Virus record (IMG/VR): IMGVR_UViG_3300031800_000001
Location: 52,087-116,086 of that record
Length of the DNA: 64,000 nucleotides
Source of the DNA: a virus
Reading direction: 5' to 3' (one strand)
In this document: in pieces, positions 4,242 to 38,874 of the stretch
Layout of the letters: each line of letters begins with the position of its first letter
How positions within the stretch are numbered: the first letter of the stretch is position 1
Made by a program: the position numbers and the translations under genes
Notes under the pieces: generated by a model
Databases searched by the model: none
What the model saw: the letters and a program-made list of their open reading frames with translations, nothing else
Told to the model about the DNA's origin: nothing

Positions 4242-4243
4242 CG

Positions 4244-5296: not shown

Positions 5297-5344
5297 AAAT
5301 AATTAGCAAGAACACGATCTGAACCCTAAAATAGAAAGAAGAAG

Positions 5345-9760: not shown

Positions 9761-10893
9761 ACGGAGATAAAAGACACAAAATGGCAATCCGTAAAAGGAT
9801 TAGGAAAGATAATTTCCTAGATTCCGAAGGGATAGTTAATACCCCCAGAAAGTCAGAAGGAAAATTTTGCAAGAATCCTTTTGACCAATTTGAAATTCAC
9901 CCTAACGGTATGGTGTCTGTTTGCTGCATGAGTTGGCTTCCCGAGAAAATAGGAAACGTCAAAGAAGAAAGCGTTAAGGAGGTTTTCAACTCGGAAAAAG
10001 CACAGGAAATAAGAGAAAGCATATTGGATGGTTCTTTCAAATACTGCGATCACAAACTATGCCCATACATACAGAACGGATCTTTGCCGGACAAGGAAGA
10101 GGTTACTGATCCTCGTCATAAATCAATTATAAAAAACAACAAAACAAAAGACCTTGAGCCGACGTTTTATAATCTTTGCTATGATGAGTCCTGTAATTTA
10201 AGCTGCCCAAGCTGTAGAAAAAATAAGATTCTTTATTACGAGGGCAAAGTTTATGAAGAAAAGAAAAAAATACAAGATAATATAATAAAACATATCTTCG
10301 GAAAGCCTCACGACAATTACTGCCTTATTAACGTAACTGGCTCGGGAGACCCATTCGGATCGAAGCTTTTTAGGGAACTGTTGTTTAGTATAGATGGAGA
10401 AAAATTTCCTAGGGTATTTTTTAATCTACAGACAAACGGGGTAATGTTCACCCCCAAGTATTGGGAAAAGATGAAAAGAATACAAAAAAACATCAACACA
10501 GTTATGGTTTCATATGACGCCGGAACACCAGAAACATATAAGATTACCCGCAGGGGAGGGGATTGGGATCAGCTTCAAAAAAATATGAAATTTCTGAGCT
10601 CTCTAAGACAAAAAGGTCTTATCAATGAGCTAAGAATAGACTGCGTTGTCCAAAAAGCTAACTACAAAGAATTAGATAAGCTAGTGAAGATAGGTTTAGA
10701 CTTGAAAGTGGATAAAGTATTTTTTTCGCTACTCGTAGATTGGGGCACATGGACACCCGAAATATACAAACAAAATTGTATATGGAAAAAAACACATCCA
10801 GAATTTGAAGAATTTACAAAGGCTTTGCTGAATCCAATTTTCAATGACCCGATTGTGGACTTAGGAAATTTAACGGAATACAAAAAATGTTAG
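9757..10893 (+). CDS. Radical SAM enzyme with N-terminal SPASM-like cysteine domain (first copy)
   Basis: A 378-residue protein. The radical SAM cluster motif is C146-x3-C150-x2-C153 (ESCNLSCPSCR), which would bind a [4Fe-4S] cluster and S-adenosylmethionine. It is followed by TGSGDPF (the SAM-contact region) and MVSYDAGTPETY/RRGGDW, typical of SPASM-type radical SAM proteins. Unusually, the SPASM-like cysteines lie before the core: FCKNPFDQFEIHPNGMVSVCC and KYCDHKLCPY within residues about 39-110. The protein at 12206-13537 has the same plan and shares the stretch RESILDGSF, so they are paralogues. ATG overlaps the stop of the glycosyltransferase by 4 bases. Family members modify peptides or sugars; the substrate here is unknown. 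No candidate small precursor peptide is obvious beside it. Confidence 0.85.
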   Translation: MNGDKRHKMAIRKRIRKDNFLDSEGIVNTPRKSEGKFCKNPFDQFEIHPNGMVSVCCMSWLPEKIGNVKEESVKEVFNSEKAQEIRESILDGSFKYCDHKLCPYIQNGSLPDKEEVTDPRHKSIIKNNKTKDLEPTFYNLCYDESCNLSCPSCRKNKILYYEGKVYEEKKKIQDNIIKHIFGKPHDNYCLINVTGSGDPFGSKLFRELLFSIDGEKFPRVFFNLQTNGVMFTPKYWEKMKRIQKNINTVMVSYDAGTPETYKITRRGGDWDQLQKNMKFLSSLRQKGLINELRIDCVVQKANYKELDKLVKIGLDLKVDKVFFSLLVDWGTWTPEIYKQNCIWKKTHPEFEEFTKALLNPIFNDPIVDLGNLTEYKKC

Positions 10894-20760: not shown

Positions 20761-23700
20761 ATGGCGGATAGTTTTATCACACTAGGAACAAGGTTAGATA
20801 GCGCATCGCTGCAAAGCACTTTAAGGCAAATAAACAGCGCTATTACCCGAGTAGAAAGGAAAGGGGTTAACATTAAAGTTGACTCTGGGAAATTTACTAG
20901 ACCCCTTGGGAAGATCACTGGTGCCACAAATGAATTCACAAGATCACTCGAAGCATCAAATGCGCGTGTTTTAGCGTTTGGAGCTTCTGCCGGGGCAATT
21001 TTTCAAGTTCAAAGGGCGTTTGAATTTTTACTTAAAAGCACTATTGAGGTCGAGAAAAGACTTCAGGATGTCAATGTAATTTTGGCGCAAACAGACCGAG
21101 GCCTCGCCAAGTTCGGAAACAACCTTTTCTCGATAGCTCAAAAAACGGCACAGAGTTTCGATACTGTCGCTGAAGCAGCGACAGAATTAGCTAGGCAAGG
21201 CTTGACAGTCGAAGAGACCCTTCAGAGGACAAACGACGCCCTCATTCTTACGAGGCTTTCCGGTATGGATGCGGCAGCATCAGTTTCTTCCTTGACAGCA
21301 GCATTAAATACGTTCAACAGGGAGGCGTTAACTTCTACTCAGGTAATTAATAAGCTTGCCAATGTGGATGCGGCGTTTGCTGTAAGCACAGACGATTTAG
21401 CCCAAGCCATGAGGCGCGTGGGAAGTACCGCTCAGGACGTTGGCGTATCCTTCGACCAACTTCTTGCAATTACAGCCTCTGTTCAGCAAACAACTGCTCG
21501 CGGTGGCCCCGTAATTGGTAACGCATTAAAAAGTATATTCACAAGAATCCAAAGAAAAGACACTCTTAATCTTTTAGAAGAGTTGGGGATAAAGGTGAGG
21601 GACTTAGAGGGGCAAATGCTACCCGCAATGAATGTTCTTGGCAATTTGGCCAAAAAGTTTCCCGAGCTATCTAAGGCTCAACAAGCTCATACTGCTGAGG
21701 TGACTGCTGGCGTATTCCAAATGAATAACTTAAGAGCGATACTCGCTGACCTTGGGAAAGAATATTCGATTTACGATAAAGCCGTGCAGATATCGACAGG
21801 GTCTACAAATGAAGCAATATTAAGAAATGAGATGCTCAACAAAACCCTCGATGCCCAAGTAAAAAAGACGATGGCTTTAGCCACGCAGGCAGCCAAGAAA
21901 ATAGGAGACCTAACCTTAAGGCCGGTCTCAGAGAGAGTGGTTGGGATCATGCAGAAAGTTTTGGGCGATATTAATGATAAAGACACAAATGACATAGGCG
22001 GAAAGATAGCGCAAGGGATGCTGTCCGGAATTGGAAATTTTTTATCGGGCCCGGGGCTACTTTTGTTAACTGGATTCCTTGGAAAACTTGGAATGAACCT
22101 AGCTAAATTCGTTAAGGAATCTGGAGCTCAATTTATGGGGCTGAACACGGCTGCGGTTCAACAAAAAAGCATACAAGAAGGAATAGCCAGAATATTGCAA
22201 TCTCAGCCACAACTTATAGCAAGGGCAGCGACATCCACACAGGCAAGAGTGGTGGTAGAAAGAGAAATAATCGGTATACTCGAACAAGAGACTCTTGCGA
22301 TGCTAAACTTGGAGAAGGTTGCCCAAAGAATGGCTGGCATGATGGTAAGAGGCGGGGTAACCGTAAGTGGTTCAGGACAAGTGGCGGCACCGGCGTATTT
22401 GAGGGGGAGAGGACCCAAGGCTGCGGCGAGGGGGACCGGCATTTCGGCACAAGGGCACATACCGAATTTTGCTAAAAAAAGCGAAGTAAGCGAAATAATA
22501 AGCGCAGCCGAGGGCGGATACAAAGCGGGGCAAATAAAACAAATGAAAATGCCCGGGCTTGGAACAATGACCTACAACTCAAGAGAACAGGTTAAACATG
22601 TTCCCGGCTTTGCTCAGCCATTCATTAATCCACCACTGCACTCAAAGGCCGGCAGGCAACATAGGGAAAAATCAGTGGCTGAAACCGGTGTCGATCCTTA
22701 TGCAGTTCCAAATTTTGCCAACCCAGCGATGCTTTCCTTATATGCTCGAGGCAGATTGGGGGTGGGTACCATAGGTATGCCCGGCAAAGGAGCCGCTGCT
22801 TCTTTAGAAAGTTTTGGAATAGGGAGATTTTATAAATCCGGGCCCAAGGTTCCCAAAGGTCAAAAAAATGTATTAAGGACTGCTTATGATCATGCAATAG
22901 CGGGTCATGGTGTATCAGCCGTAAAGGGGAAAATAGCGTTAGGAGAAATAGGAGAAGTAGCAGTCGCGAGAGCTACAATGCCAAGCGATGTTGCAAAACG
23001 ATTTTATAATGATCTATTGTCTCCGGCGATGGGCAAGACAGCGTACAAGGGTTTTACTGATGCACTTGGAGGGAAAACCAAGGCGGCGGGCATAGCGCAA
23101 GATATAGTATACCATCAAAACGGAACAGCGCGGTCATTCCAAGGGGCAAGAGAAAGGGCAATGGAAGTGCTTGCAAATAATCCCGCCGCTAAAGGTTCAT
23201 TTTTCGCAAAAGCAGAATTGACTCATTCTACTTTGTTAGAAAAAGCCCTTTTTGAACGCGGTGCCGGTCAGCATCTTCTGCCATTCAGCAAGGTGAAGAT
23301 GGGGCAAGGAGAGACAATTCTAGACGCAATAACTGTAAAAGGAGGAAAAGTAATTGGACCTGCTGAATTCAAACCAACTTTTCATGCGGGAATGTCCGGC
23401 AGAGATGCCAGAGGAAGCCTGTCGTACAAGTCGTTATTCTCTTCTGACTCAGGTAAAGAGGGCGGACTATTGCATTTTTTACGGTCAGGAATGGAAAAGA
23501 ATATTGCCCGCGGTGGCTACAAAGACAAATCCGGTCAATTCCATGGCCCAGAGAAGTTAAGAGGCGATCTAAACAAATTAGATGATTATATAAGTACCGC
23601 AAAAACGTCAGACTTCGCTAGAATGCAAAGAGTTTCCCAAGGTGAAATTACGCTTGAGGGAGCTAAATCCGCAACAGCAATAAAAGATATTTTTGGCAAG

Positions 23701-26700
23701 GATGTAATGAAACTCCTTGAATCGACCCCGTCGGCATCAAATTATGATAAATTAATGGCGCATTTTGGTGCGGCCCAAGGCTTCATTCCTAATCTCATGA
23801 TGCGGGGATCAATGAAAAAGAAATTAGCCACTGCGAGCACGAGTGGAAAAGGAAATATTTTCGATTTTGATGGGACGCTAGGTATACCCCCGAAAGGGAT
23901 GGTTACCACCCCAACAGGCATGAGAAAAATGCAAGAATCAGATACGTGGCATGGTTGGTCTGTCGGTCATATGAAACCAACTGAATTAGCAATGGCAGCG
24001 GCTAAAAATAAAGAGCCAATAACAGTTTTAACCGCAAGAGGGCAAGATTCAGTTCCGTATATCCAGAGTTGGTTAAAGGCCCAAAAAATTCCATACAGTG
24101 AAGTAATAGCTACTGGAAGCAGACAATACCCCAAAGGGATAGAGAAAACCCACCAGAAGAAGGCCTATGAAATTTTTGAACGCCCACATTTACGAAACGC
24201 AAAGTTCTATGAAGACTCACGGGCAAACGCATATTACGCGGCACTAAGAGGTGCAAGCAAAGATATGAATATACAGCCCCGAATAGTAGATTTTGGCAGC
24301 CGTTGGGGGCAGGTTAATCCAGCTGGCCAAGGGCTCATTCCGAATTTCAGTAAAGATTCATCACTAACGGCTGCGTTTAAAAGGGAAAAGAAAGCCACCG
24401 GGTTACCCGAAAATCAACTTTATGCAGCTTCCATAGATACTCCAGAATACAAAGGTTTGGCGGTAGGAAATAAGAGAGATGAGCGGACAAGGACGGATCT
24501 AATTAAAGCTGTCAAGTCTCACCCGAACCCAGCAAGAGCAGGCATGAAGGCAAGCGGGGGTTATATACCCAACTTTGCCGCAGATAGCGTGGATTACATG
24601 GCCATGACATCAGGAATGATGATGGCGGGAATGATGATGCAAATGGGCGGATCCAGCGCTCAAGAAAAACAAATGCTGGCCGACCAAAAGAGTGACTTTA
24701 GAAAACAAGAAAATATTAAGAAAAAAGCAAGAGCAGCCGCTAAAAATCAAGAGAGAGCACAAAAAAGCCAAGAACGAGAAAGAACTAGATTACAAACAGA
24801 AGTCAAGACTGCTGAGCGCGAGGGACAGCAGGCGACCAAGGCGCAATTGCAGGCCAAACATGGAACGGCAACCACTCCGGGGGGGCCGAGAACGGGAGGC
24901 GTAAAACAAGCTCAAGCGGCGCAGCAAAGAGCAGCAGATAGAATAGTCCGAAGAGAAGTAAACAGGGCAATAATGCACGGTGGCACGCCAGCGACTTTGG
25001 CGGGGGGTGCCCCAATTCCCACTGGCGGTACACCCGCAAGAATTGCGGGACTGGGAATGGCTGGGGTACACGCTGAAGCTGGCGGGGGGCGGGGCATAAA
25101 CCCAGCCACTGGTCTACCACATACGGCAGCATACAACGCGAAAATCGAAAAGCTAAGAGGGGTTGGTTTCGGGAAAGCGCAACAAATAATTGCACAATCC
25201 ACACAGACTACAGGAACAACCCCAAGGGGAGCCGTCGCTGTACATGGTGGCGACAAAGCAGCCAAGGACCTAACCAAAAAAACCTTACTCCTTCAAAAGG
25301 CGAGAGAGGCTGAAGCCCGCGCCGCTGATCGAGTAAAGGCAGCAAGCGACAAAAAGACCGCCGCGGCAGCAAAAATTATTGCGCAAGATAAAGAAATAGC
25401 AAAGTCCTCAAGGAAAGTAACCGCCGCAAAGGCCGCAGAAGCAAAAGCGACAGAAAGGGCCGCGGCAATGAAGCCGGACAGAAAAGCTGCCATCAGTAAG
25501 TGGGTCAAAGGAAAAGGTTTTGGACTGGGAATAGGCATTCAAATGATGGCTGGAGTGGCCGAACAATTTGTGGGAGGCAAAGGTGAAACCCCAGAAGAAA
25601 GAGCAGAAAAAGCAAAAGTTAGAGGGGTTGGCACCGCGGCAGGAATGGCCGGAACTGGCGCAATGATTGGCGGTGTGCCCGGCGCGCTCATTGGCTTAGC
25701 TATTGGTTCAGGGCTAGCCGTCATGGATCATCAAAAAGCCAGCAAGAAAACAGCGGAAGACTACGCGAAAGCTATTCAAAAAGAGACAGAAGCAAGAAAG
25801 AAAGCCTTACTTGGCGCGGAGTCATATATTAAATTGCAGGGGAGATTAACCGGCATGTTTAATAGGGGCGCTGGTCCTGCCGAACAGGGGTTGATGCGCA
25901 GACAAATGAAAGAACAACTCATGCAGGTTGAGGACGCGGGGCTAAGAAGAGGGCTAATTGAGGCGGCTGGTGATGAAAGTAAAATGCGAGAAGCTATGGC
26001 TAAAGTGCAGGAAACTATTAGCATACAGGAAAAGAAAGGTGGGATAGGCGTATTAGCGGCAAAGGCAGCAGAGGCCGGTGGGGGAACGCGGACACCGCTA
26101 ATGAAGGACTTGGCGAAAACCCTGTCTTCTGCATTCGAATTAAAAGGAATTAAGACTTGGGAGCTCATGGGTAAATCTGGCGCTGAGCTAACGACTACAC
26201 TCGAAGGGATGGGCGTTGGTGCTAAAGAAGCCGCAGACATGATAGCAGCACTTGGAGAAGAAAATCAAGGTCTTATACCGCAGATAATGGCTCAAGCCCA
26301 AGGATATGAAGAGCTCGAAGCAGAAACTTCAAGATCTGTAGAATCAATAGAAAGAATGGCGCTAGCTACGGCTGATCTAAACTATAGGTTATCACAAATA
26401 TCAAATTCATTTGAACATTTAATGAATGTATCAAAGCAGTTCTTTGACCACAGTCAGAAAGTGACCAAAGCGTTATCAGGCTCCATCACGGGAGATGACA
26501 CGATTGGTAAGGAGCGCAGAGAAAGGTTTGGGCTTACCGGTAATATACTCAAAAACATCGAAACTAACACCTTAAAAAATACCCTGTTGCAAAAAAGATT
26601 TCACGACGCAATCCTTAAGATGACCATGGAAAAAAGTAGCGCGGGAGGAAGCTTGCCGGGGGGATTGCAGCAACTTCAAGTCTTGGCGCGGGAAATGATA

Positions 26701-29700
26701 GTCGGCCCAGCTAGTCTTGCCGCGGAGGCATACAGAGAAATAATCGGTGATAAGGAAGGAACAGGGGGGCTCGGAAGAGTGACGGCTAGAAAACTAGAAG
26801 ATGCACTTTCCAAAGCAGAAAATGAAATAAAAGAAAATAGTTTAAAGCTTGCCCAATCAAACAGGCTTCTGATAATTCAAAATCAGCTTGCAGTATCAAA
26901 CAGGTCGTTTCAAAGAAGAAGAACCCTGCAGGAATCCATGACAGCAGGGGGAGCTTTTGGCGGGGGAGGCATTATCGACGCTTTGAAGAACTTAACGACT
27001 GTGGCGGGGATTCCAACTAGACGCGAAACTTCAAGAGTGGCGATGATGCAGATGCAGGGGCTAAGAGATCTAGAAAAAATGGGATTTGATTTTGCAAATG
27101 GAATAGGTAAAGCCATAAAAGAAAACCTTCTAGAAAGAACCTTCAGGGCAGAAGCTCCTGATGCTTTAGAGGCTCTTGGAATGAGTCCGGACAACGTAAG
27201 TAAAATCATTAATAGCAACTTTAATCCAGACGTATCAAAAAATATAATAGAAAGCATGAATTCTGCTCAAGGCGGAATGATGGCGCAGGTTATAGACTCA
27301 GCTAATTTATCAAAAATTGCACAAGAGGAAAGACAATACAAAGCTAAACTTCTAGAGGCCGAGTTCAAAAACAGAAACATGTTAGTGGAGAGCTTGGGTG
27401 CAAATGTTGACGTAACTGCTTTGCTTATTGGCAGTAATTACGATCTTATAGTTTCAAATGAGAAACTTGGCGAAGATTCAATGGACGCGCAGGAATTCGG
27501 CGCAAGGGAGCGGAGAACTAACGATCAAATTTATAAAGCTGCGATAGACACTGCGATGAAAGGGGCTGTGTCAAAAATGGGCGAAATCATGGTTAAGGCG
27601 AACCAAGGGTTCATGCAGGCGGTAGAGGTATTTAGGGGGGAACAAGACCTACAGCATACCAGAATAAACCAAGAAAAAGCCTTTGCCTCTTTAGCAGGTA
27701 AAACAGCAGGTGCCGAGGATATGCTGAGCAGCTTGAGCAGGGGGGAAAAATTCGAAATGACTCCCCCCAAGGCAGAAGAGATCTTCGACAAATCAGGTTT
27801 TACGAGGGCGTTGAGCTGGGTCCTGAGGCACGAAGCTGCGTTTTTGGGAATGTTTAGCCCGACTGAGACCATGACGTGGGAAAACCTTACCGAGAGCTTG
27901 GACACCTCGGGGGTTATTGGGGTACGTGGACATGATGTCAAGGCAAGTGCCTTCGACGAAAATATGATGGCCTTCATGAAGAGGATGCAAAGGGGCGGAG
28001 GCGAAGAGGATAAGCTGAGAATGAAGGCTGGCTTTGAGGCGTATCGATCCACTTTGACTGATGCAAATGTCCCTCAGTTTGAGCAAATGTCGATATCCAT
28101 GGTAAGAGCACAGGAGGGCCTGCTGATGGCCTTTGCTAAAATAAGCGAAATAGCAGATAAGCAGGGACTGATCGAAAGAATAGAAGACCCCGGAGGAGGA
28201 GCAAACATTATACGCGGTGCTCTGCCCTTGGACTTAGCAGATTGGCCAAAAATCGCGGAGTTTATGGGTGCAACCGCCGATCCCGCCGAGGCGATGAGGC
28301 AAATGAAAAAAGCATTAAGCGAAATGGTTTTCGAGGGTGATGCGGGAAAATGGCAGCCAAACATGATAGCGGAATTATCCAACTTGTCGGAAGTCGTAAG
28401 GTTAATGGGAAGAGAAAAGGGATTCGAAGCGTATGAACTAAAAGCAGACCCTGCGAAACTTCTTACAGCATTATTGGCTATACAAACAGCCGTGATCGGA
28501 GTTCACCCGAGTCAACAGGGTCAGATATATACCAGACGAGAAGGAAGCGTAATCGGACACGGTACGGCGCAAGGACAAACATTCGAACAGGCTGTTCAAC
28601 GTGGTGAGCGGACATCTAGGGAGTTTTGGAACGAAATACCAGTCTTTAGTCAGCAACAACCGTTGCCAGAAGGCGAATATGAGAAGATGATGGGGGCGGT
28701 TAGCTCCATGATGGAGGATTACCGCTCAGCAGGGAGGCTGTTATTTTCCAATTTTCAAAAGACCTTTAAGGAAGGGGGAACGGTAAATACCGACATTGCT
28801 AAGCAACTTAAGCGCTCTATAGATACTCTTGAAGGGAACGAGGGCAGGATCAGAACAATCTTAGCAGCCTTGGCTAAAAGAACCGGCGGAGAGGAGGGGT
28901 TCTTTGAGACACACGATGATCTATTACCTCTCTTGGACGGCTTTGACACAATAACAGATGAGTTTCTTGCCATGCTTAGGGCAATTATTGATCCAGACAA
29001 AGGGATTGTAGTAGATAAAAAATTAGCGGAGCAGATAGCCGATCTTTTGAAGGACACACTCCCCCCCCTCAAACCATTCCGGGCAGGACAGATATATACT
29101 GGAAAGCCGATTCCGGACAGGCCGGAAGGCGGGGGTACCGGTGATCTTGGGAAAGCATGGGCAACTGCGTTTAGCACGAAGGTAAAAGATGATTTAAAAA
29201 ATTGGAAGATGTCCATGGATCCCGCGGGGGAACTTGGATCCGCCATGAGCCAATTCGAGGGAACGGGGCCCGAGTGGACCGATGCACTCGGCGTTCTCAG
29301 GAGCGTTGTTACCGCCCTTGACGAGCTAGACCTTACGATATCAGCAGACCCACTTGAAACTCCTTTATTGGCTATACAGCAATCGATGGACGCCTTGAAG
29401 AAGATTAATACAAACGGCAACGAAGACATAAGAAACGCTTTCAACAATAAAGAAGACGTAGTTATAGAGACTCTTAGAAACATACTCGAAGCTATACTAT
29501 CCGACGAATCTACTTCATCAAGTCAACGAGAAGAAATAAGAAAAGCACTCAATCTGTTGCCGGATGCATACAAAAGGACAATGGAGGATATAGCAGGAAG
29601 GTCTGGCACAAGAATGATAAGAGACGAACTTCTCAAGCTCAGGCAAAGAGGCAACAACGGGACCCCACTGTCTCCCCCGCTTATACCGGGTAGTATGCTT

Positions 29701-32700
29701 GCTGGCCAAGTACGACGAGGGACGCAACAAACTTCTCGTCCACTCACCACAATGGCTAGACAAACATTTGGTAAATACGGAAGAGCATTCTTAGGAGGAA
29801 ATAAAGACTATAAGGGGCCAAGAAGCGGATTGCCAAGCGCAAACAGCCTTTTAGGCATCAAAACTAGTTTTAAGAATATTCCTGATCCTAGCAAGATAGA
29901 TGACATGATGAGGGACATACAGAAAGCGTCTCCAGATATAAAGGACCCCGCAAAAAGGGCAAGTCTGAGCTATCTATCGATGCTGAAAACAGGGCAAAAA
30001 ACAATATTTAATGTAGCACAACAAGTTGCGGAACGGTTAAGGGGCGACAACACGCTAATGATTGAAGAAATTCATAAATTGGCACCGGTTTTGGGCGATC
30101 TACCTTTCCGCGAATTAGAAGAAGGTTTAAAAGCCGCGAACAAAGATATGTCCGCCGTAGTTAGGGATCAAACCGACGCCACGAGTAAAGCAGCTGGTAT
30201 GGCAAAAACGCTAAGTAAGCACACTATGGAGATGGCCAACATTTTCATAAATCAGAATCTGCTTGCGAACTTCAGGGGGCCTCAACAGATCGACAAGGCA
30301 AGAAAAGTTGGGAAGCAATGGATGGATACGCTAAAGGAGGGGATTCCGGACATTGGTGGTAAGATGGATCCTTCGCGCCTCGGCCCCGAGGGTTTGAAAC
30401 CCGGTACTTACAAAGGGGGTTTGTTTGGCGGTAAACTGAACCAAGATGGCTTGTGGCGACGGGCAGCAGCGAGAAAAGAAGGGGACCCATTCATCCCGGA
30501 CCGCACCCGTGACTATGAACACTCAATGATGGGCCCCGGTAGTATATGGCAACTCTCACCAACAAGGGGCGATGACACGTTTGCTAATAAGCGAGACATG
30601 GCGTACAGATTTTTGGAGAAGCTAAAGCAGGGCAAGGCTCATCAACGGATGATGGCAGCACCCGGCGGAACTACCGGGGGGCCACCGGCACTTGGATTTC
30701 AGCCGGGGCGGGAACACACGATATTGGGTGGCGAGACAGCTGGCGTGATAGCGCAAAAATTCGGCGTCTCTCTGGAGAATTTAAAAGAGGCAAATTCCCA
30801 AATTGCAGACATTAATAGAATTAATGCTGGGGACAAAATGAATATCCCGGCCCAATATAGTATTGAACACACGCTGGGGCAGAAACTCACCGCCAATCAA
30901 CAAAAGAAAATTGCTGAACAACTCGACAAACAATTTAAAGAAGGCGTAGTCTACCATAACGAAATGCACAAGGCAACTGTAGCCCGGAAAAAAATAGCAG
31001 AGAACGCTAAGGAGATTGCAGGAATAGAAGAAAAAATAAAAAACAGAACGATTGAGGCTAGCAAAGCACAAGACAAATTAAAGGCTTTATACGCTCAGAG
31101 AGTGATGATTGAATCGAAGCTAAACGAAAAGGAAAAATCGCTGGCAATCCAGAGTTCGAAAATTGGGGACGATAATATAAGAGCGCGGCATCAAGCGGTG
31201 GTATTAAGAGCAGCTTTAGAACAGAGAGCTATAAAAGAAAGAACAGACCAAACGGCCATGCTCCAAAAAACCGTAGATGTGCATGGTGGCAGAGCGCTGC
31301 TCCCCGAGGAGATAAAAGACCCAAGAGCAAAGGCTGCCGCGGACCAAATAGCGATAAATGAGGCAGCAAACGAGCAGGGCCAGCGGTTCGTTGACTCTTT
31401 ACAAGCAGAAAGAGATGCTTTGCTTCAAGCCAATGCCGCGCTTGAAGGGTTCTCTAAAGCAATTGGAATTTCCTCAAAAGATTTGCAAAACATGTCTCCT
31501 TTCGAGCTTAACCTTGAGCTTATAAGACAAGAGGGTTTGCCAAGACAAAATTTATTGGATGCGATGCGCAGCCCAAGAATGCCACAGCCGGGTGGCAAAT
31601 TTGCCGCGCAGACATTTAGCGCAATTTCACCATCAAGAGTGGGGGAAGCGCAGCAAAAAAATCTCAAGGAAGAGATGGAGAAAATTTTACGCATCGAAAA
31701 AGAAGCAGCTGCGGGACCAAGAAAAATACATCTCGCAGAGAGCAAGGTGGCGGAAGCAAAAATCATCACGGCGGGTTTTATGCGGGAACCGGAATTCAAA
31801 GCTTTTGAGAAAAGCTCGGGGGCTTTGAAAACTGCGGAAAATAAGAGGGTGTCTGAGGAGGAAAAGGTGGTTACCTTGCTCGTCGCCAAAGGTGAACTAC
31901 TGAAGAAGGAGGGCGACAATGCAAAAGCTCTCGACGCCTTGGGAGAGGAGATTGAGAATGCAAACACAGCGGTAGTGATAGCAAGGGGAGTTGAAAAAAC
32001 CGCCATCGATAAGCATAACGCAACATATGCCGAGTACATAAATGTTATAAAGGCAGGAGAAGATGCTGAAAATGAATTAAACAAAGCAAAACAATCACAC
32101 ATTGACGCGCTGGGCGCTCAAGGAGTAATTATTAGAAACTGGGGGTCGGTAGCTGAAGCAGCTATAGAAATACAAAAGAGATTTGTAACTGCAGAACACG
32201 TGAAGAGGATGGAGCAACTCGATACGCAAATAGCTAGCACGACAATGAGTTTAGCCCTAATGGACGACCCAAAAAAATTCAGAGAATTATTAGAATCAAC
32301 GAAAAAGCTAACAGAGGCCCAATTAAGGCTAGCGGCAAAACAAGCCAGACTAGAAGAAGCAGCAGGCATAGGAACTGCTCAGGACACATACCAAAGAGAA
32401 CAGGATGTAACCCGTCAGCAACTAAGAACGGGAAAAATAGGCGTCTGGGAAGCGTTTGGAGCGGATACATTTGAAAAAGGCGAAGCGATGTCAAGAGGAT
32501 GGAAAGAAAGGGTCCTCGACGACATGATCGAAATAAGAGAGGGAATGATTTCGTCTTTCTCAGACGGTTGGGCCGCTTTCGCGCTAGAGGGCAAAAGCGC
32601 ATCCGAGGTAGCGAAACAGTGGGGAAGAGATTTTTTACGGATGATAAATCAAGCGTTCTATAACGCTACGATAGGTAGATTTATGGGGAACTTGATGAGT

Positions 32701-35700
32701 GGCGGCTTTGGAAGCTATGGGAGACCGAGCTTGCCGAGACAACAGTCAGGCGGAGAACTCCATGGTCCTTCTCATTCGAAGGGGGGTATCAAGCTCGAGG
32801 CAGAAGGTGGCGAATTCATAGTTAGAAAAAGCGAAGTCAGAAAACCCGGAGTGCTGGGTCATTTACGCGAGATAAATGAAGGACGAGTTTTTCAGCAGGG
32901 CGGCCCAGTGGGGATAAATAGGAATATTTGGCGGCACCCAACTACTTGGCCAGATCAGCAACCAGTTATGCCGGGATGGGGCGGAGGCCGGCAATTAGGT
33001 GGAAAATTCCAAGGTCAACAGAACTGGGCTGGGCAAAAAGTTCTGCCCAATGCCGCGGGTAATCCCGGGGGCCAACATGGAATTTTTGCTAATGACTTTG
33101 CCCCCCCGGCATTTCATCATAGACAATCTGAATTAGAGATGATAGACCTATTTAATCAAAGAGCGGGGGCAGCGGGTAACCCATTCAATCTTCAGAAAGG
33201 GAAAGGTGCCGCATTTGCGAAAAATCGAATGGACAACATGATGCAAGCCATTGCTGGAGGTGGTTACCTTGACAATGAGCACACGCTGTTGGGTTTTGGG
33301 CATCGAATTGGCCCTAACGGCCCCATGCTCCCCTTGCCCGCCAGACTTAACGAGAAAGAACACGCAGCCAGAGAACAGCTACAATTTTTTCAGGATGAAA
33401 ACCCTCTTGCCTTTAATCATCTAAATCAGTGGTGGAGAAAAAATAAATCCGGATGGACTAACCCACAGGTTTATCAAGAAGGTGGCCACGTGATGCCGCT
33501 GGGCGCACCGGGCTTCTCTATAGCAGAAAAAAGGGAGGCATTTAAGAATCAAACACTTCGCGATCTTAAGAGACTCAAGATGGATCACCCACGCGGCTGG
33601 GACATAGAAGGTTGGCCCCCAATGTGGACGCCGTGGAAACAGTTTGACAACGAGCAAGAATACAAAAAAGCTATCGTCGCACAACGAAGGGCTGACTGGC
33701 AGGCCGACATGAATCGTGAGGACGAGATACAAGGGATGAGGAAAGCGGGATTTGGTCCAAAAGGCATGCTGTTGCGCCGCGACCCATGGCCCGGGCCCGC
33801 GCCGGTGGGACCGCCTTTCGTGCCCGGTCCGGCCATGTTTGCACCCGACCCCCGCAACAATCAGGGCGGTGCGGGTATGCTAGATCGGATGGAGGCGATG
33901 CGACGCCAGATTGAGGCGGCGCGGGGTAACAGGCCGGAGTTGGTAAGGCCAGACAAATATGAAGATGGCGGCAGGGTTACGCTTTCAAAGCCCACCGTTG
34001 CAAACGTACCGAAATTAGACAAGAATTATATATTAAAGCTGGCTAATAACCCTCACGTATTGAACTGGATGAAAGATCCAAATACTATAGAAAGATTTAA
34101 CCTTAAAGGGAATGAAACATTTGAGGGGGCTTACATGAAGATGATTCGTCACGCCGAAAAGATTAAATTAAAACCGGGAAGAATGAACCAGACGTTGTCG
34201 GGGGCGGGTATCCCGCTATGGAGAGACGGTATGACTCCCGACGTAGCGAATAAGATGATGGGTGCCGGGTGGATTAGACCAGAAGCTTTTGGAGTATTAA
34301 ACGAATGGTTTAACATAAGGGATGGAGGCAGGGGGGGAATGTGGGCGAGGGATGAAAAAAATACGGGTAGGTGGGGGGGCGGCGTGAACGCGTTCTACAC
34401 CGGCGAGAGCGAAATAAAAGACCAACAAAGAGGTCTTAATAAAAATTTAACCAGCATGGGTCTCATGTCGCCAAATCCTAAACCCGGTCAGATTAAGCCC
34501 CTTAAGGTAGACGGCTGGGATGGAGACGCTACTACTGCGGCATTAACATTATTCCGAAACAAAAAAGGTATACCGATCCCGTCACGTGCAGCAACCAATG
34601 ACGAGATACTCGCCCACCCCACGTTTGCCCCACACAGAATTCCATTGCCGGGGAAGCTCCGCGACAAGAAGACTAGAGATGCATTAGGTATGGTTGGTCA
34701 TCACCCGGGGATGTCCAGAGCCGGGTGGAGAGGTGTGGCACCTTGGGATATGATGAAGGAAAAACGTTTTAAATCGACGAACCGCGCTGAAGTGGAGGTA
34801 CATCCATATACTGGCATGGTCGACCAAGACGGGCCCGGGGTGAGGGAGGGGTGGGAGTTGGATCCCAAAAGCAAATGGTACCGCGAGGAGGAAGGTTTTC
34901 CGTCAAGATACGAAATAATTCCCGGAAAAGGACTGGGTCACGTGGTAAAGGTGGGAGAAAGTATTACCGCCATAGGTCAACAGTACAAAAAAGAAATGAT
35001 GTTGTCTGGTTCAAAAGACGGATCGGCGACCACCCTTTCTTTGGCGCTGCAGGCGGCTAATCCAAAATTAATGGAAACATTAAAACAGAGAGCTGGGGGG
35101 AAACCTGATATTAGCAAATTCCTTATGCCAAATGACGTTGTTCTTATACCGGGAGGGGGAAATTTGTTCGATCCAAAAGCAAACATGAAAGCTGGTGAGC
35201 TTGATGGAAAACCGTTCCCGGGCTTTAGGCGAGGATGGTGGGATCAATTCAATAAGCAACATTCATCATTCAAGATGGATTACATGGAATACGGGGCTGG
35301 CGGTGTTGTTTGGGATCCCAGAAGTTCAGCCTCTGTTCCAAATCGATTTACAAGACAATCAAGACTTCAAATTCCCGGAACCCCCGTGTCGGGTATAGAG
35401 GGTAACCAATTGCTACCGCAACACCGAGCATGGAACAATAGACTCTCGGCATTTTGGGCAACAACTTTCGCAGCTTCTGGCAACAACGTACCGTTAGCTA
35501 CCCAAAGATTTTACGATGGAATTCAGGACCACATGACTGCTGGACGCGTGAGGGCAGCGGGTGGACAGCACGGCGTTTCTCCCGGTGGATATAGATATAC
35601 AAGGGGGCCAGCAGTAAGCACCCTAGTGGGAGGTAATATTGATGACGGTGGAGTAGCAGGAATGGGCCCGCCAGCAAGAGGTCATCGTATAGCGATGAGA

Positions 35701-38700
35701 AATGCCAATAGCTATTTCCAAAGAGAAGAAACCCCAGACTTTGCACCGTGGGGAATACACCCGTCAGCTGTAGATAAAGACGTAGCTAGGGTAATATTTT
35801 CAGAAGTCGGAGCACAGCACGAGGATCTTGTGCATGTCGTTGGGGACGCAATGAGAAATAGATACGATAATCAAGCATCAAGAACAAGGCACGGCATTTC
35901 TACTGAGCACGGAATATCGGTTAACGGTGCCAGATATCCAGCAAGGGTTAGAGACAGGGCGTGGCAAGTTCAAGCGCCGAATAGAAACGGGAGGGGACTT
36001 ACTTGGCGTGCCGCAACAGCGGCAGAGGGGGTAACGGCAAGCAAGATTGGCATGAAGGATATCGCGTGGCAGGGCGCACCGGGGGGATTCCGTCCCGAAA
36101 CAACACAACAATTTACCGCCATTGGTCATCGAGAGAACGATAATTGGCATTTATCCGGAAGACTGTCGGTATTCCACCAAAGCCCACAGGGGTTTGCCGA
36201 CATGAATACTTGGCTCGGCGGGGGTCCAGCGGGACGCGCCGTTACAGCGCAATATAGCAGGCATTACGGAAGCGATGTTCTGGGAAATGCGACTGACGGG
36301 TGGATCGGTGCACGCGAAAGCATTCAAAATGTATGGAAAAAATCCCTAGCACAATCCGCATCAAATAAAAGAATAGGAAATCCAGCAGATGGAGTAACGC
36401 TACCCGGCCAGCAGCAATCAGGCTTATTAGCTAAAGATGATGAATGGTATAAATCTTGGCAGATAGGAATGAGCTCAGAATTTGATCCTCGAATGAAGCC
36501 TACGGCCATGACGCAAAATGTAGGTCCATTTTGGCTGTGGAGAGCTGATTACACAACGGATTGGCAATCCAGAGCTAATGATCAGCAGCGCAGTGATCGC
36601 GGCTTGCCCACCCGTCGAGGAAGAGTGCAAGCTGATCGAAGACAAAGAGGAGGATTGATTACCGCTGGCTCGGGAGTGACAGATGACGTACCGGTGTACC
36701 TGAAAAAGGGCGAAATGGTGATGACCCAGAAAGCAGTACAAGATAATGGCGTCCAGTATTTCAAGGACATAGAGGCGGGAAGAGTACGCATGGAGGAAGG
36801 TGGCGAAGTTGATGAGGAAATGATTAATGAAGCCAACAAGGCGACTGAAAAAAATCAAGAGAACGAGGGGGAGGAGACTGGAGAGAGGAATCCGCCAAGC
36901 CTGAATGAAAAATACGGGATGAACCTTGCAGAGGCGTGGGGTGGAGCTCCCGGCGAATTTAAAATGGAAGGCATAGCAACGCAAGATAAAAAGTGGTATA
37001 ACTCTGGAAATATGCCGGGTCAAGGTATGCGACGTGTTGCTGAGGTTGTGGAAGAACGATTTGGAAAAGGATTTAAATACGGTGGGACAAACACATTCGC
37101 CTACAATGACCCCGACAAGCCATCATTAGGAAGATTTTTCGTGGATAATAAGATGAGCATGTACGCCATGGAAGCTAAAGATAACCCACAGAATGAGATG
37201 CGTGAGAAACGAAGGAAGATGTTCGTTGATTATAAGGTTTATCTTAATGACGAATACAAAAATAGAAAACAACAATTTGACGACTTCAAGAAGAAAAAGA
37301 AACAGATGCTCAAGGCGGCGTGGATTCAGTTCGCCGTCGCAATGGTGCAGGTTGGAGTGGCGGCCAAGTCGGAATCAGCAAATGCAGAATATGGTACCGA
37401 GGAACAAGTCAAGGCCAATCCGGGGAAATATAAGTCTATGAAAGGCGCGCCGAAAGGTACGAAGGCGGGATCGTATGTCAATCCGACAGCGCAGGCGTCT
37501 TGGGCGAACAAAATGAAATGGGCGGATAGTCCGGGGGGGTCGGCGCTGATAGCAGGTACAACAACTGCCGCTATAGGCTATGGCATGGGTATGGAGGGGA
37601 AGGACATAGCCCTGACTGCTGGAACAGCAATGGCAACGGCTGCTATAACATCCTACGCAAAAATTAAAGGGATGGGCAAACAAGAACAGAACGCCTTAAA
37701 CAGCAACGATCCCGCGATTCAGCAGGCTGCATTAGACCGGTGGAAGAAACACCTGAGACCCGAAGAAATAGCAGGCGCAGAACAAAGCATTGAATTTCAC
37801 GGAACCGAACAGCAACTCAAACAGTGGGTTAAGGAAGAGAACAAATGGCAAAAGAGTAGCATGCATTGGGCTAACCTCGCGAATGACGACCAGACGCCAG
37901 AAGGACAGAGAGCCTTGGCGAAAAGGACTGCCCAGTCCCACGCAAATAAATTACGGCATGTCCAAGCGCAGAAGAATGCCTTCATTGGAAACAGCCAAGC
38001 TCTTCACCCGGACCTTCTTGTGCGTGATGCCAAGAACAATGTGTGGGGGATGAACGCTAAAACAAGGGCAAATCTTAAATCAATTAAAATCGGATGGGCA
38101 AGAAGTAAAGAAGCGGCGACGGTAAGAAGAAACCAGTTGGAAGGCATGAACGAAAACGCGGACATGCTTGGGCGGATGATGCAGCCCGGCGGCAACATGG
38201 GCGGGTTTCCTATACCAAGAAAAGCCCAAGGAGGACTAATAACTGGTGCGGATGGACCTCCCGGCGAGGACACAGTTAGAGCCTTACTTACGAGAGGAGA
38301 GTTTGTGGTCAGCAAGGAGGGAGTTGACAAATTCCCCGGCGGAGCAAACGCACTCCTCAGGTACAACGACATAGCAAAACATGGAGGTCAGGTTGCAAGG
38401 TTTGCAGAAGGAGGGATGGTTACAGGAAGAGAATCTCAATTTAACCCCACCTCTCCCATCACTGCGGCAACTGGTGGTGCTTTGGGTCTGAATGTGGGGC
38501 AGGGAGCCGAAGGGATGACGGATTCTCTTATGCAATTGGTTGATATAGTTCAATCAATCAGAGACACAGTCGATAAAGAAACAGCAGAAAAACAAAGAGA
38601 AAAGACCGCTGGGGGGCAAAACGACACTCAAAATGGCACTAGTGGTGTAAATCAAGAGATAACAAATAACGTTGCGGTAACGGTCAATGTAAACAATGAC

Positions 38701-38874
38701 GGTACAACAGACGCAACCTCGACGTCGTCCACGGAGGGTGGGGGAGATTCGAAGGAAGATAGCGAAGCAGACGCGGATAACCATGAAAGATTTGCAGAGT
38801 TAATGCAGGCGGTTGTTCTGCAGACAATAGTTGAGGAACAGAGGCCGGGAGGTTTATTGTGGAAAACGGCGTAA
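20761..38874 (+). CDS. Giant tape measure protein with embedded enzyme-like and cell-wall domains
   Basis: A 6,037-residue protein. Residues about 70-420 match the TP901/phage-minor-tail core of tape measure proteins (ELARQGLTVEETLQRTNDAL, RRVGSTAQDVGVSFDQL). Residues 567-1273 hold five IPNF-type motifs (567, 649, 1009, 1193, 1269) separating compact modules. One has D855 and E869-x-K871 as in PD-(D/E)xK nucleases; another has HAD motifs (DFDGT from D1035, T1091, E1151-D1152). Membrane-like Gly/Ala segments occur near 1626-1654 and 5593-5635. Further along are a LysM-like domain (about 3315-3366), long charged coiled coils, a peptidoglycan-binding-like motif (VDGWDGDATTAALTLFRNKKG, near 4575), a second LysM-like region (about 4726-4800), and a SleB-like hydrolase region (ARVIFSEVGA, E5015). 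Three GEF/GEM motifs typical of tape measure C-termini lie near 4020, 5315 and 5850. It sets tail length and probably helps DNA entry. Confidence 0.93.
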   Translation: MADSFITLGTRLDSASLQSTLRQINSAITRVERKGVNIKVDSGKFTRPLGKITGATNEFTRSLEASNARVLAFGASAGAIFQVQRAFEFLLKSTIEVEKRLQDVNVILAQTDRGLAKFGNNLFSIAQKTAQSFDTVAEAATELARQGLTVEETLQRTNDALILTRLSGMDAAASVSSLTAALNTFNREALTSTQVINKLANVDAAFAVSTDDLAQAMRRVGSTAQDVGVSFDQLLAITASVQQTTARGGPVIGNALKSIFTRIQRKDTLNLLEELGIKVRDLEGQMLPAMNVLGNLAKKFPELSKAQQAHTAEVTAGVFQMNNLRAILADLGKEYSIYDKAVQISTGSTNEAILRNEMLNKTLDAQVKKTMALATQAAKKIGDLTLRPVSERVVGIMQKVLGDINDKDTNDIGGKIAQGMLSGIGNFLSGPGLLLLTGFLGKLGMNLAKFVKESGAQFMGLNTAAVQQKSIQEGIARILQSQPQLIARAATSTQARVVVEREIIGILEQETLAMLNLEKVAQRMAGMMVRGGVTVSGSGQVAAPAYLRGRGPKAAARGTGISAQGHIPNFAKKSEVSEIISAAEGGYKAGQIKQMKMPGLGTMTYNSREQVKHVPGFAQPFINPPLHSKAGRQHREKSVAETGVDPYAVPNFANPAMLSLYARGRLGVGTIGMPGKGAAASLESFGIGRFYKSGPKVPKGQKNVLRTAYDHAIAGHGVSAVKGKIALGEIGEVAVARATMPSDVAKRFYNDLLSPAMGKTAYKGFTDALGGKTKAAGIAQDIVYHQNGTARSFQGARERAMEVLANNPAAKGSFFAKAELTHSTLLEKALFERGAGQHLLPFSKVKMGQGETILDAITVKGGKVIGPAEFKPTFHAGMSGRDARGSLSYKSLFSSDSGKEGGLLHFLRSGMEKNIARGGYKDKSGQFHGPEKLRGDLNKLDDYISTAKTSDFARMQRVSQGEITLEGAKSATAIKDIFGKDVMKLLESTPSASNYDKLMAHFGAAQGFIPNLMMRGSMKKKLATASTSGKGNIFDFDGTLGIPPKGMVTTPTGMRKMQESDTWHGWSVGHMKPTELAMAAAKNKEPITVLTARGQDSVPYIQSWLKAQKIPYSEVIATGSRQYPKGIEKTHQKKAYEIFERPHLRNAKFYEDSRANAYYAALRGASKDMNIQPRIVDFGSRWGQVNPAGQGLIPNFSKDSSLTAAFKREKKATGLPENQLYAASIDTPEYKGLAVGNKRDERTRTDLIKAVKSHPNPARAGMKASGGYIPNFAADSVDYMAMTSGMMMAGMMMQMGGSSAQEKQMLADQKSDFRKQENIKKKARAAAKNQERAQKSQERERTRLQTEVKTAEREGQQATKAQLQAKHGTATTPGGPRTGGVKQAQAAQQRAADRIVRREVNRAIMHGGTPATLAGGAPIPTGGTPARIAGLGMAGVHAEAGGGRGINPATGLPHTAAYNAKIEKLRGVGFGKAQQIIAQSTQTTGTTPRGAVAVHGGDKAAKDLTKKTLLLQKAREAEARAADRVKAASDKKTAAAAKIIAQDKEIAKSSRKVTAAKAAEAKATERAAAMKPDRKAAISKWVKGKGFGLGIGIQMMAGVAEQFVGGKGETPEERAEKAKVRGVGTAAGMAGTGAMIGGVPGALIGLAIGSGLAVMDHQKASKKTAEDYAKAIQKETEARKKALLGAESYIKLQGRLTGMFNRGAGPAEQGLMRRQMKEQLMQVEDAGLRRGLIEAAGDESKMREAMAKVQETISIQEKKGGIGVLAAKAAEAGGGTRTPLMKDLAKTLSSAFELKGIKTWELMGKSGAELTTTLEGMGVGAKEAADMIAALGEENQGLIPQIMAQAQGYEELEAETSRSVESIERMALATADLNYRLSQISNSFEHLMNVSKQFFDHSQKVTKALSGSITGDDTIGKERRERFGLTGNILKNIETNTLKNTLLQKRFHDAILKMTMEKSSAGGSLPGGLQQLQVLAREMIVGPASLAAEAYREIIGDKEGTGGLGRVTARKLEDALSKAENEIKENSLKLAQSNRLLIIQNQLAVSNRSFQRRRTLQESMTAGGAFGGGGIIDALKNLTTVAGIPTRRETSRVAMMQMQGLRDLEKMGFDFANGIGKAIKENLLERTFRAEAPDALEALGMSPDNVSKIINSNFNPDVSKNIIESMNSAQGGMMAQVIDSANLSKIAQEERQYKAKLLEAEFKNRNMLVESLGANVDVTALLIGSNYDLIVSNEKLGEDSMDAQEFGARERRTNDQIYKAAIDTAMKGAVSKMGEIMVKANQGFMQAVEVFRGEQDLQHTRINQEKAFASLAGKTAGAEDMLSSLSRGEKFEMTPPKAEEIFDKSGFTRALSWVLRHEAAFLGMFSPTETMTWENLTESLDTSGVIGVRGHDVKASAFDENMMAFMKRMQRGGGEEDKLRMKAGFEAYRSTLTDANVPQFEQMSISMVRAQEGLLMAFAKISEIADKQGLIERIEDPGGGANIIRGALPLDLADWPKIAEFMGATADPAEAMRQMKKALSEMVFEGDAGKWQPNMIAELSNLSEVVRLMGREKGFEAYELKADPAKLLTALLAIQTAVIGVHPSQQGQIYTRREGSVIGHGTAQGQTFEQAVQRGERTSREFWNEIPVFSQQQPLPEGEYEKMMGAVSSMMEDYRSAGRLLFSNFQKTFKEGGTVNTDIAKQLKRSIDTLEGNEGRIRTILAALAKRTGGEEGFFETHDDLLPLLDGFDTITDEFLAMLRAIIDPDKGIVVDKKLAEQIADLLKDTLPPLKPFRAGQIYTGKPIPDRPEGGGTGDLGKAWATAFSTKVKDDLKNWKMSMDPAGELGSAMSQFEGTGPEWTDALGVLRSVVTALDELDLTISADPLETPLLAIQQSMDALKKINTNGNEDIRNAFNNKEDVVIETLRNILEAILSDESTSSSQREEIRKALNLLPDAYKRTMEDIAGRSGTRMIRDELLKLRQRGNNGTPLSPPLIPGSMLAGQVRRGTQQTSRPLTTMARQTFGKYGRAFLGGNKDYKGPRSGLPSANSLLGIKTSFKNIPDPSKIDDMMRDIQKASPDIKDPAKRASLSYLSMLKTGQKTIFNVAQQVAERLRGDNTLMIEEIHKLAPVLGDLPFRELEEGLKAANKDMSAVVRDQTDATSKAAGMAKTLSKHTMEMANIFINQNLLANFRGPQQIDKARKVGKQWMDTLKEGIPDIGGKMDPSRLGPEGLKPGTYKGGLFGGKLNQDGLWRRAAARKEGDPFIPDRTRDYEHSMMGPGSIWQLSPTRGDDTFANKRDMAYRFLEKLKQGKAHQRMMAAPGGTTGGPPALGFQPGREHTILGGETAGVIAQKFGVSLENLKEANSQIADINRINAGDKMNIPAQYSIEHTLGQKLTANQQKKIAEQLDKQFKEGVVYHNEMHKATVARKKIAENAKEIAGIEEKIKNRTIEASKAQDKLKALYAQRVMIESKLNEKEKSLAIQSSKIGDDNIRARHQAVVLRAALEQRAIKERTDQTAMLQKTVDVHGGRALLPEEIKDPRAKAAADQIAINEAANEQGQRFVDSLQAERDALLQANAALEGFSKAIGISSKDLQNMSPFELNLELIRQEGLPRQNLLDAMRSPRMPQPGGKFAAQTFSAISPSRVGEAQQKNLKEEMEKILRIEKEAAAGPRKIHLAESKVAEAKIITAGFMREPEFKAFEKSSGALKTAENKRVSEEEKVVTLLVAKGELLKKEGDNAKALDALGEEIENANTAVVIARGVEKTAIDKHNATYAEYINVIKAGEDAENELNKAKQSHIDALGAQGVIIRNWGSVAEAAIEIQKRFVTAEHVKRMEQLDTQIASTTMSLALMDDPKKFRELLESTKKLTEAQLRLAAKQARLEEAAGIGTAQDTYQREQDVTRQQLRTGKIGVWEAFGADTFEKGEAMSRGWKERVLDDMIEIREGMISSFSDGWAAFALEGKSASEVAKQWGRDFLRMINQAFYNATIGRFMGNLMSGGFGSYGRPSLPRQQSGGELHGPSHSKGGIKLEAEGGEFIVRKSEVRKPGVLGHLREINEGRVFQQGGPVGINRNIWRHPTTWPDQQPVMPGWGGGRQLGGKFQGQQNWAGQKVLPNAAGNPGGQHGIFANDFAPPAFHHRQSELEMIDLFNQRAGAAGNPFNLQKGKGAAFAKNRMDNMMQAIAGGGYLDNEHTLLGFGHRIGPNGPMLPLPARLNEKEHAAREQLQFFQDENPLAFNHLNQWWRKNKSGWTNPQVYQEGGHVMPLGAPGFSIAEKREAFKNQTLRDLKRLKMDHPRGWDIEGWPPMWTPWKQFDNEQEYKKAIVAQRRADWQADMNREDEIQGMRKAGFGPKGMLLRRDPWPGPAPVGPPFVPGPAMFAPDPRNNQGGAGMLDRMEAMRRQIEAARGNRPELVRPDKYEDGGRVTLSKPTVANVPKLDKNYILKLANNPHVLNWMKDPNTIERFNLKGNETFEGAYMKMIRHAEKIKLKPGRMNQTLSGAGIPLWRDGMTPDVANKMMGAGWIRPEAFGVLNEWFNIRDGGRGGMWARDEKNTGRWGGGVNAFYTGESEIKDQQRGLNKNLTSMGLMSPNPKPGQIKPLKVDGWDGDATTAALTLFRNKKGIPIPSRAATNDEILAHPTFAPHRIPLPGKLRDKKTRDALGMVGHHPGMSRAGWRGVAPWDMMKEKRFKSTNRAEVEVHPYTGMVDQDGPGVREGWELDPKSKWYREEEGFPSRYEIIPGKGLGHVVKVGESITAIGQQYKKEMMLSGSKDGSATTLSLALQAANPKLMETLKQRAGGKPDISKFLMPNDVVLIPGGGNLFDPKANMKAGELDGKPFPGFRRGWWDQFNKQHSSFKMDYMEYGAGGVVWDPRSSASVPNRFTRQSRLQIPGTPVSGIEGNQLLPQHRAWNNRLSAFWATTFAASGNNVPLATQRFYDGIQDHMTAGRVRAAGGQHGVSPGGYRYTRGPAVSTLVGGNIDDGGVAGMGPPARGHRIAMRNANSYFQREETPDFAPWGIHPSAVDKDVARVIFSEVGAQHEDLVHVVGDAMRNRYDNQASRTRHGISTEHGISVNGARYPARVRDRAWQVQAPNRNGRGLTWRAATAAEGVTASKIGMKDIAWQGAPGGFRPETTQQFTAIGHRENDNWHLSGRLSVFHQSPQGFADMNTWLGGGPAGRAVTAQYSRHYGSDVLGNATDGWIGARESIQNVWKKSLAQSASNKRIGNPADGVTLPGQQQSGLLAKDDEWYKSWQIGMSSEFDPRMKPTAMTQNVGPFWLWRADYTTDWQSRANDQQRSDRGLPTRRGRVQADRRQRGGLITAGSGVTDDVPVYLKKGEMVMTQKAVQDNGVQYFKDIEAGRVRMEEGGEVDEEMINEANKATEKNQENEGEETGERNPPSLNEKYGMNLAEAWGGAPGEFKMEGIATQDKKWYNSGNMPGQGMRRVAEVVEERFGKGFKYGGTNTFAYNDPDKPSLGRFFVDNKMSMYAMEAKDNPQNEMREKRRKMFVDYKVYLNDEYKNRKQQFDDFKKKKKQMLKAAWIQFAVAMVQVGVAAKSESANAEYGTEEQVKANPGKYKSMKGAPKGTKAGSYVNPTAQASWANKMKWADSPGGSALIAGTTTAAIGYGMGMEGKDIALTAGTAMATAAITSYAKIKGMGKQEQNALNSNDPAIQQAALDRWKKHLRPEEIAGAEQSIEFHGTEQQLKQWVKEENKWQKSSMHWANLANDDQTPEGQRALAKRTAQSHANKLRHVQAQKNAFIGNSQALHPDLLVRDAKNNVWGMNAKTRANLKSIKIGWARSKEAATVRRNQLEGMNENADMLGRMMQPGGNMGGFPIPRKAQGGLITGADGPPGEDTVRALLTRGEFVVSKEGVDKFPGGANALLRYNDIAKHGGQVARFAEGGMVTGRESQFNPTSPITAATGGALGLNVGQGAEGMTDSLMQLVDIVQSIRDTVDKETAEKQREKTAGGQNDTQNGTSGVNQEITNNVAVTVNVNNDGTTDATSTSSTEGGGDSKEDSEADADNHERFAELMQAVVLQTIVEEQRPGGLLWKTA
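22459..24579 (+). repeat. Five IPNF(A/S)-type motifs bracketing modules in the tape measure protein
   Basis: IPNFA (22459-22473), VPNFA (22705-22719), IPNLM (23785-23799), IPNFS (24337-24351) and IPNFA (24565-24579), usually preceded by Gly (GHIPNFA, QGFIPN, QGLIPNFS, GGYIPNFA). They separate four different sequence modules. The DNA is not repeated, so the repeat is at protein level. Confidence 0.75.

Follow-up and report, generated by a model that had tools for sequence, protein, structure and literature searches.

Why would the tape measure protein of a phage carry several enzyme-like modules in its interior, each set off from the next by a copy of one short peptide? The question is raised by a 64,000-nucleotide stretch of viral DNA (the window), part of a virus record of 116,086 bases, in which the original prediction described five GxIPNF(A/S)-type motifs separating four different modules, among them a nuclease-like and a HAD-like one. 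It proposed that these modules are exchangeable cargo lying between conserved cut or folding signals, and that they could be delivered into the host as effectors.

A motif array within the tape measure protein

The array resides in a single open reading frame of 6037 amino acids (Table 1). PF10145 (PhageMin_Tail) was matched with an E-value of 4e-34 (1.5e-36 in the own-record search) and tape-measure families of PHROG with a best E-value of 1e-50, so that both collections assign a tape-measure N-terminal domain to this protein.

Table 1. Features of the array-carrying protein, in window coordinates
Feature	Position	Strand	Basis or remark
Tape measure protein, 6037 aa, array carrier	20761..38874	+	Single ORF; PF10145 and PHROG tape-measure matches
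PhageMin_Tail domain, aa 126-312, within the conserved ~540-aa N-terminus	21136..21696	+	PF10145
Motif 1, IPNFA, aa 567-571 (GHIPNFA)	22459..22473	+	
N-cap module, aa 572-648, conserved, not cargo	22474..22704	+	Family in at least 40 tape measures
Motif 2, VPNFA, aa 649-653 (YAVPNFA)	22705..22719	+	
Putative PD-(D/E)xK-like cargo module, aa 654-1008	22720..23784	+	Residues E729/E732, D855, E869-x-K871
Motif 3, variant IPNLM, aa 1009-1013 (GFIPNLM)	23785..23799	+	
HAD phosphatase cargo module, core aa ~1030-1165, PNK-phosphatase-like	23800..24336	+	Motifs, model, alignment
Motif 4, IPNFS, aa 1193-1197 (GLIPNFS)	24337..24351	+	
C-cap module, aa 1198-1268, conserved, not cargo	24352..24564	+	Family in at least 171 tape measures
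Motif 5, IPNFA, aa 1269-1273 (GYIPNFA), array end	24565..24579	+	

When checked in this reading frame, all five motif copies were found where they had been placed, and the residues singled out earlier (E729, E732, D855, E869, K871, D1035, D1037, T1039, T1091, E1151 and D1152) were all correct. The proposed consensus holds for copies 1, 4 and 5; copy 2 lacks the leading glycine, and copy 3 ends in L-M. A chance origin is ruled out, as the 700-residue array stretch contains five copies of [IV]PN[FL] versus 0.014 expected from the protein's own composition; the pattern was not found in the rest of the 6037-residue protein. The number of modules between the motifs, four, was also as predicted, but the first and last belong to conserved families, making them caps and leaving just two as cargo.

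Both cargo modules are retained in two relatives (L327; L002/L328) at 82-93% identity. As the array order is identical in these two close relatives, no swap is visible at this distance. The dN/dS ratios against the relatives, 0.22-0.39 for the module at aa 654-1008 and 0.23-0.26 for the HAD module, indicate that both are under purifying selection.

Two cargo modules in the window

The HAD module contains the complete motif set, with D1035/D1037/T1039 as DxDx(T/V), T1091 as the T/S motif, the lysine within KTHQKK, and E1151-D1152 as the acidic motif IV. All four motifs are conserved in the aligned modules, and their residues are invariant in modules of several other tape measures that share 22-30% identity. 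Folding by AlphaFold from an 11-row alignment (A2) gave a model with a confident core (pLDDT ~65-94) and the motifs at low confidence, in which aa 1030-1165 adopt a Rossmannoid HAD fold. In the PDB ranking, Pnkp1 from the Pnkp1/Rnl/Hen1 RNA-repair complex came first (probability 1.00, E 5e-3; TM-score of the best match 0.35, taken over a model with disordered parts), and the top of the ranking consisted mostly of HAD phosphatases. In addition, BFVD matches had E-values of 1e-5 to 1e-3, several of the named viral ones being PNKP or PseT phosphatases, and the PHROG matches included polynucleotide kinase (PHROG 415). With its full motif set, confident core fold and HAD phosphatase structure matches, the HAD-like domain of the original prediction is upheld. 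These similarities point to a polynucleotide-phosphatase-like enzyme, with the substrate predicted by likeness to known proteins. The module has the HAD fold and motifs in common with Pnkp1 and the T4 PseT-type 3'-phosphatase, but with only 10-19% identity, and the window version sits in a tape measure and lacks the kinase part.

For aa 654-1008, the claimed PD-(D/E)xK signature is present and is retained in the two relatives, although E..D..(D/E)xK is a short pattern that may arise by chance. Profile searches gave no match to families (Pfam, PHROG) or PDB chains, hhalign gave no match to other module clusters, and a further scan for relatives recovered close relatives only. The fold model, built from three near-identical sequences, reached a pLDDT of 37, and with so few and so similar sequences no usable fold was obtained. 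Given this model and the lack of a profile match, the assignment to PD-(D/E)xK is one by residue signature, and we describe the module as putatively nuclease-like, a reasonable but unproven reading.

The motif among viruses and cellular genomes

To our count, at least 282 distinct open reading frames bear the motif, the window included and contained copies removed, though these frames were chosen by the motif and their numbers are therefore not prevalences. They come from IMG/VR, which was scanned three times with degenerate DNA patterns encoding the motif; each scan yielded at least 120 stretches. Each scan selects one motif copy, leaving additional copies within a frame unselected, and most of the frames have two or more. 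Among the matches listed, the tape-measure N-terminus (~540 aa) is common to 148 of the 154 frames with an intact 5' end. In these 154 frames, whose 5' end is inside the locus, the 5-95% range of the first motif position is aa 539-650. The search for GxIPNFA in other phage tape measures, suggested along with the original prediction, thus found it in hundreds of them with various domains between the motifs, and restriction of the motif to one phage is ruled out by these matches.

Bacterial and archaeal genomes totalling 257 Gb matched the motif pattern 16 times versus about 22 expected (an estimate at equal base frequencies), and only L311 and L318 among these matches have several motifs per reading frame. 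Being at chance level there and found in IMG/VR, the motif is virus-specific. A consensus of caps and motifs, searched at an E-value of 10 against 50,697 phage records, matched none of them. With L088, a complete member of this tape-measure family, as the query, 94 phage records were matched, of which the best 50 cover the N-terminal part of L088 only. From these two results, the array seems to be characteristic of phages absent from isolate collections.

Module exchange at the motif

The modules of all collected arrays form 150 sequence clusters. Swap cases, defined as an unaligned replacement between segments at least 45% identical on either side, numbered 130 among pairs of tape measures and are partly non-independent. 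Breakpoints fell within 5 residues of a motif on the left in 63% and on the right in 52%, compared with 10% of random array positions, and within 15 residues in 79% and 65%, compared with 24%. Conservation of the motif itself may lengthen an alignment, though only by a few residues, and cannot shift a distant breakpoint. The replaced modules belong to different clusters in 43 of the 130 cases, comprising 22 distinct replacements. As an example, before one same following module, three tape measures (L254, L259, L206) have a 176-aa SNase-type module, two (L228, L289) a 245-aa module and one (L011) a 171-aa module, with flanks that are 78-97% identical. The neighbours of HAD modules likewise include modules of PD-(D/E)xK-like, ART-like and other types, in an order that varies between tape measures. 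With breakpoints at the motif and 22 distinct replacements, the predicted exchange of cargo between conserved motifs is borne out, and the comparison of arrays shows that whole modules have been replaced between motifs during evolution.

Within the motif, third codon positions vary freely and the encoded peptide is preserved, indicating selection on the peptide rather than on DNA and disfavouring a DNA recombination site in its place. P-N-F is kept in nearly all copies. In more than 100 tape measures, one small N-terminal cap contains a trio of motifs at fixed spacings of 22 and ~35 residues.

Cargo classes across the arrays

The tape measure L110 contains a nearly full-length CCA-adding tRNA nucleotidyltransferase (NCBIfam E 1.3e-40, below the model's own cut-off; Pfam PolyA_pol E 2.7e-14, above cut-off) that by eye keeps the GG..RD, DxD and HD residues, and the same reading frame carries the tape-measure N-terminus (E 9e-149). 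Other cargo matches include a GNAT module (profile match E 4e-7), an SNase module (E 9.5e-5, above cut-off), a cytidyltransferase-related region (E 1.3e-7), P-loop modules (PDB match E 7.5e-6) and a weak ParB-like match (E 0.013).

Further classes are recognised by their residues. In a 153-member PD-(D/E)xK-like cluster, the residues G, E, D and K are invariant across 39 representatives and follow the PD-(D/E)xK order; ART-like modules have the R, S-x-x-S and E-x-E signature of ADP-ribosyltransferases; some modules have a kinase-like residue signature; and three modules of other tape measures contain HExxH. The PD-(D/E)xK-, ART- and kinase-like classes found no support in PDB profile searches, and these three, together with HExxH, are provisional assignments from residue signatures. 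Overall, the modules seem to keep catalytic-type residues, as shown for HAD and as residue signatures suggest for the other classes. PADLOC gave no match among 105 segments, and no cell-wall enzyme was found among the recognised cargo. Most cargo modules would, by prediction, either work on nucleic acids or modify molecules of the host.

Discussion

We consider it fairly probable that the array is a cargo cassette in the tape measure, from which interchangeable enzymes are delivered to the host with the motif as a recognition peptide. In this proposal, a ~540-aa N-terminal domain would be followed by an N-cap, one to several enzyme modules, a C-cap and the remaining tape measure, with the peptide G-[FYH]-[IV]-P-N-F-[AS] expected at module junctions. 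As tape measures exit the virion before the DNA does, entry of the modules into the host cell at infection is most likely, making their delivery as effectors plausible. Once there, the cargo would refold and act before phage gene expression. Early in infection the modules may serve in host takeover, RNA/tRNA repair or counter-defence; enzymes acting on nucleic acids and tRNA would fit either host takeover or the repair of damage by host defences. The phage of the window would be expected to deliver a nuclease-like enzyme and a polynucleotide phosphatase. The lambda tape measure is described as reaching inner-membrane proteins during DNA injection (PMC13190303).

A folded domain of ~20-35 kDa is too big for the tail lumen, which counts against delivery, and unfolding followed by refolding must therefore be assumed. 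The motif would most likely be a short recognition peptide that docks the unfolded module on a tail chaperone or in the tail lumen. That the arrays amount to a general effector-loading platform of abundant uncultured phages, with tag-flanked enzymes threaded through the tail into the bacterial cytoplasm alongside the first DNA and exchanged as cassettes, is a broader proposal that we hold tentatively and with somewhat less than even confidence.

Alternatively, the motif may be a site at which a phage or host protease frees single modules in the virion or after injection, which we judge unlikely but deserving of weight. Such a site would agree with one motif per module junction and with the very strict P-N-F, and HExxH, the mark of zincin peptidases, occurs in three modules elsewhere; peptidases of this type are proposed to process polyvalent proteins (PMC5512222). 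However, HExxH modules are rare and none is in the window array, the frequent neighbour families, as judged from sequence, included no common protease that could be recognised, and cuts at the motif trio would only shred the small cap that holds it. The spacing of that trio, in more than 100 tape measures, suggests that the motif functions in docking or folding rather than in cleavage, at least in the trio caps.

It is a good deal less probable that the modules act outside the cytoplasm, in the envelope during entry, or in the producing cell as late enzymes fused to an abundant protein. Tape measures are indeed made late and in abundance, and the enzymes known from tape measures, such as lytic transglycosylases, target the cell wall (survey PMC10194240). 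The recognised cargo classes, on the other hand, use cytoplasmic substrates and include no recognised cell-wall enzyme, and late expression by itself needs no tape measure. We think it very unlikely that the modules are structural spacers, that is, inactive captured enzyme folds that set tail length or tape stiffness: tape measure length determines tail length in known phages and array lengths vary widely, but the catalytic residues are the invariant ones in highly diverged HAD and PD-(D/E)xK-like modules, and the CCA-adding module retains its GG..RD, DxD and HD. There is similarly little to recommend the motif as a mere DNA-level hot spot or an inert linker tolerating recombination, since breakpoints coincide with it but synonymous positions vary while the peptide stays, and an inert linker would not retain P-N-F in nearly all copies.

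Returning to the cargo cassette, the polyvalent proteins encoded by phages and conjugative elements (Iyer et al. 2017, PMC5512222; jumbo-phage review PMC7824862) are likewise large, multidomain, associated with virion genes and thought to be co-injected with DNA, and their repertoire of ART, GNAT, ParB-like, nucleotidyltransferase and zincin domains is in common with the arrays. The arrays differ in having the tape measure as carrier, conserved caps, and G-x-I-P-N-F-A at the junctions; the term "tape measure" is absent from the searched text of PMC5512222. Here too, a single polypeptide from a virion gene region combines several enzyme domains, in the window one supported (HAD) and one putative, and zincins, frequent but not universal in polyvalent proteins, have no HExxH counterpart in the window array. 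MuF polymorphic toxins of temperate phages (PMC12226406) also join a conserved virion part to a variable enzyme domain, but they have one variable C-terminal domain and immunity proteins, whereas the present array is internal and multi-module; Pfam and PHROG searches of the 6037-residue protein matched no MuF domain, with the tape-measure domain in its place. Sle1/Tme tape-measure-like effectors (PMC13277306) are likewise ejected and have exchangeable domains, but belong to bacterial contractile injection systems, have a C-terminal helical domain and, like the MuF toxins, vary a single terminal domain; the searched passages describe neither a junction peptide nor an enzyme array. Tape measures that carry cell-wall enzymes (survey PMC10194240) likewise contain an enzyme domain, but their lytic transglycosylases act on peptidoglycan at entry, whereas the cargo here is of cytoplasmic classes. 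No earlier description of such arrays, or of IPNFA, was found in the open-licence literature searched.

Should injection of the modules occur, the tape measure would be a natural protein-delivery device with a defined tag and insertion points. The sequences between motifs would then list early enzymes of uncultured phages, including nucleases, RNA-end and tRNA repair, acetyl transfer and possibly ADP-ribosylation. This also makes it testable whether takeover or counter-defence enzymes arrive via the tail rather than the capsid.

Finally, stop codon reassignment was considered for the ORF-poor part of the window at 53-64 kb and proved unnecessary, as a giant open reading frame there continues past the window edge.

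Junction peptide and array cargo

The motif of G-x-I-P-N-F-A type that marks module junctions is present three times, at a constant spacing of 22 and ~35 residues, in the N-cap (the conserved small module at the array start) of many loci. The middle copy of this trio, SEYIVPNFAGG, resembles a common tape measure motif of the GEyvVP type, and the junction peptide may therefore have been derived from it. Motif matches in the ~1820-aa ORFs of five further loci (L147, L180, L189, L209 and L218), which do not have the tape-measure N-terminus, represent either chance or a different carrier protein.

HD-type residues are present in the tRNA nucleotidyltransferase module of locus L110 (Table). HExxH zincin-like sites were observed in array modules of loci L036, L229 and L274, as they are in polyvalent proteins.

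Features of the window and of locus L110
Feature	Location	Strand	Remarks
CCA-adding tRNA nucleotidyltransferase (predicted)	L110 aa 1206-1681		nearly full-length; within tape measure protein
Radical-SAM-type protein	window 9757-10893	+	phrog_21308, E 3.4e-7
Tape measure protein	window 20761-38874	+	6037 aa
Giant ORF	window 52971-63998	+	>3676 aa; extends beyond window end

Other features of the window

The C-terminal part of the window tape measure (aa ~4000-5860) contains repeated GG-L-I-T-G ... GE-F-V-V segments and, by eye, LysM-like and cell-wall-hydrolase-like text. Upstream, within the same gene run, lies the Radical-SAM-type gene. The end of the window appears ORF-poor because a single giant ORF fills this stretch, with long YATGTTYATGT-type repeats and, at its start, text judged by eye to be IPT/TIG-like.
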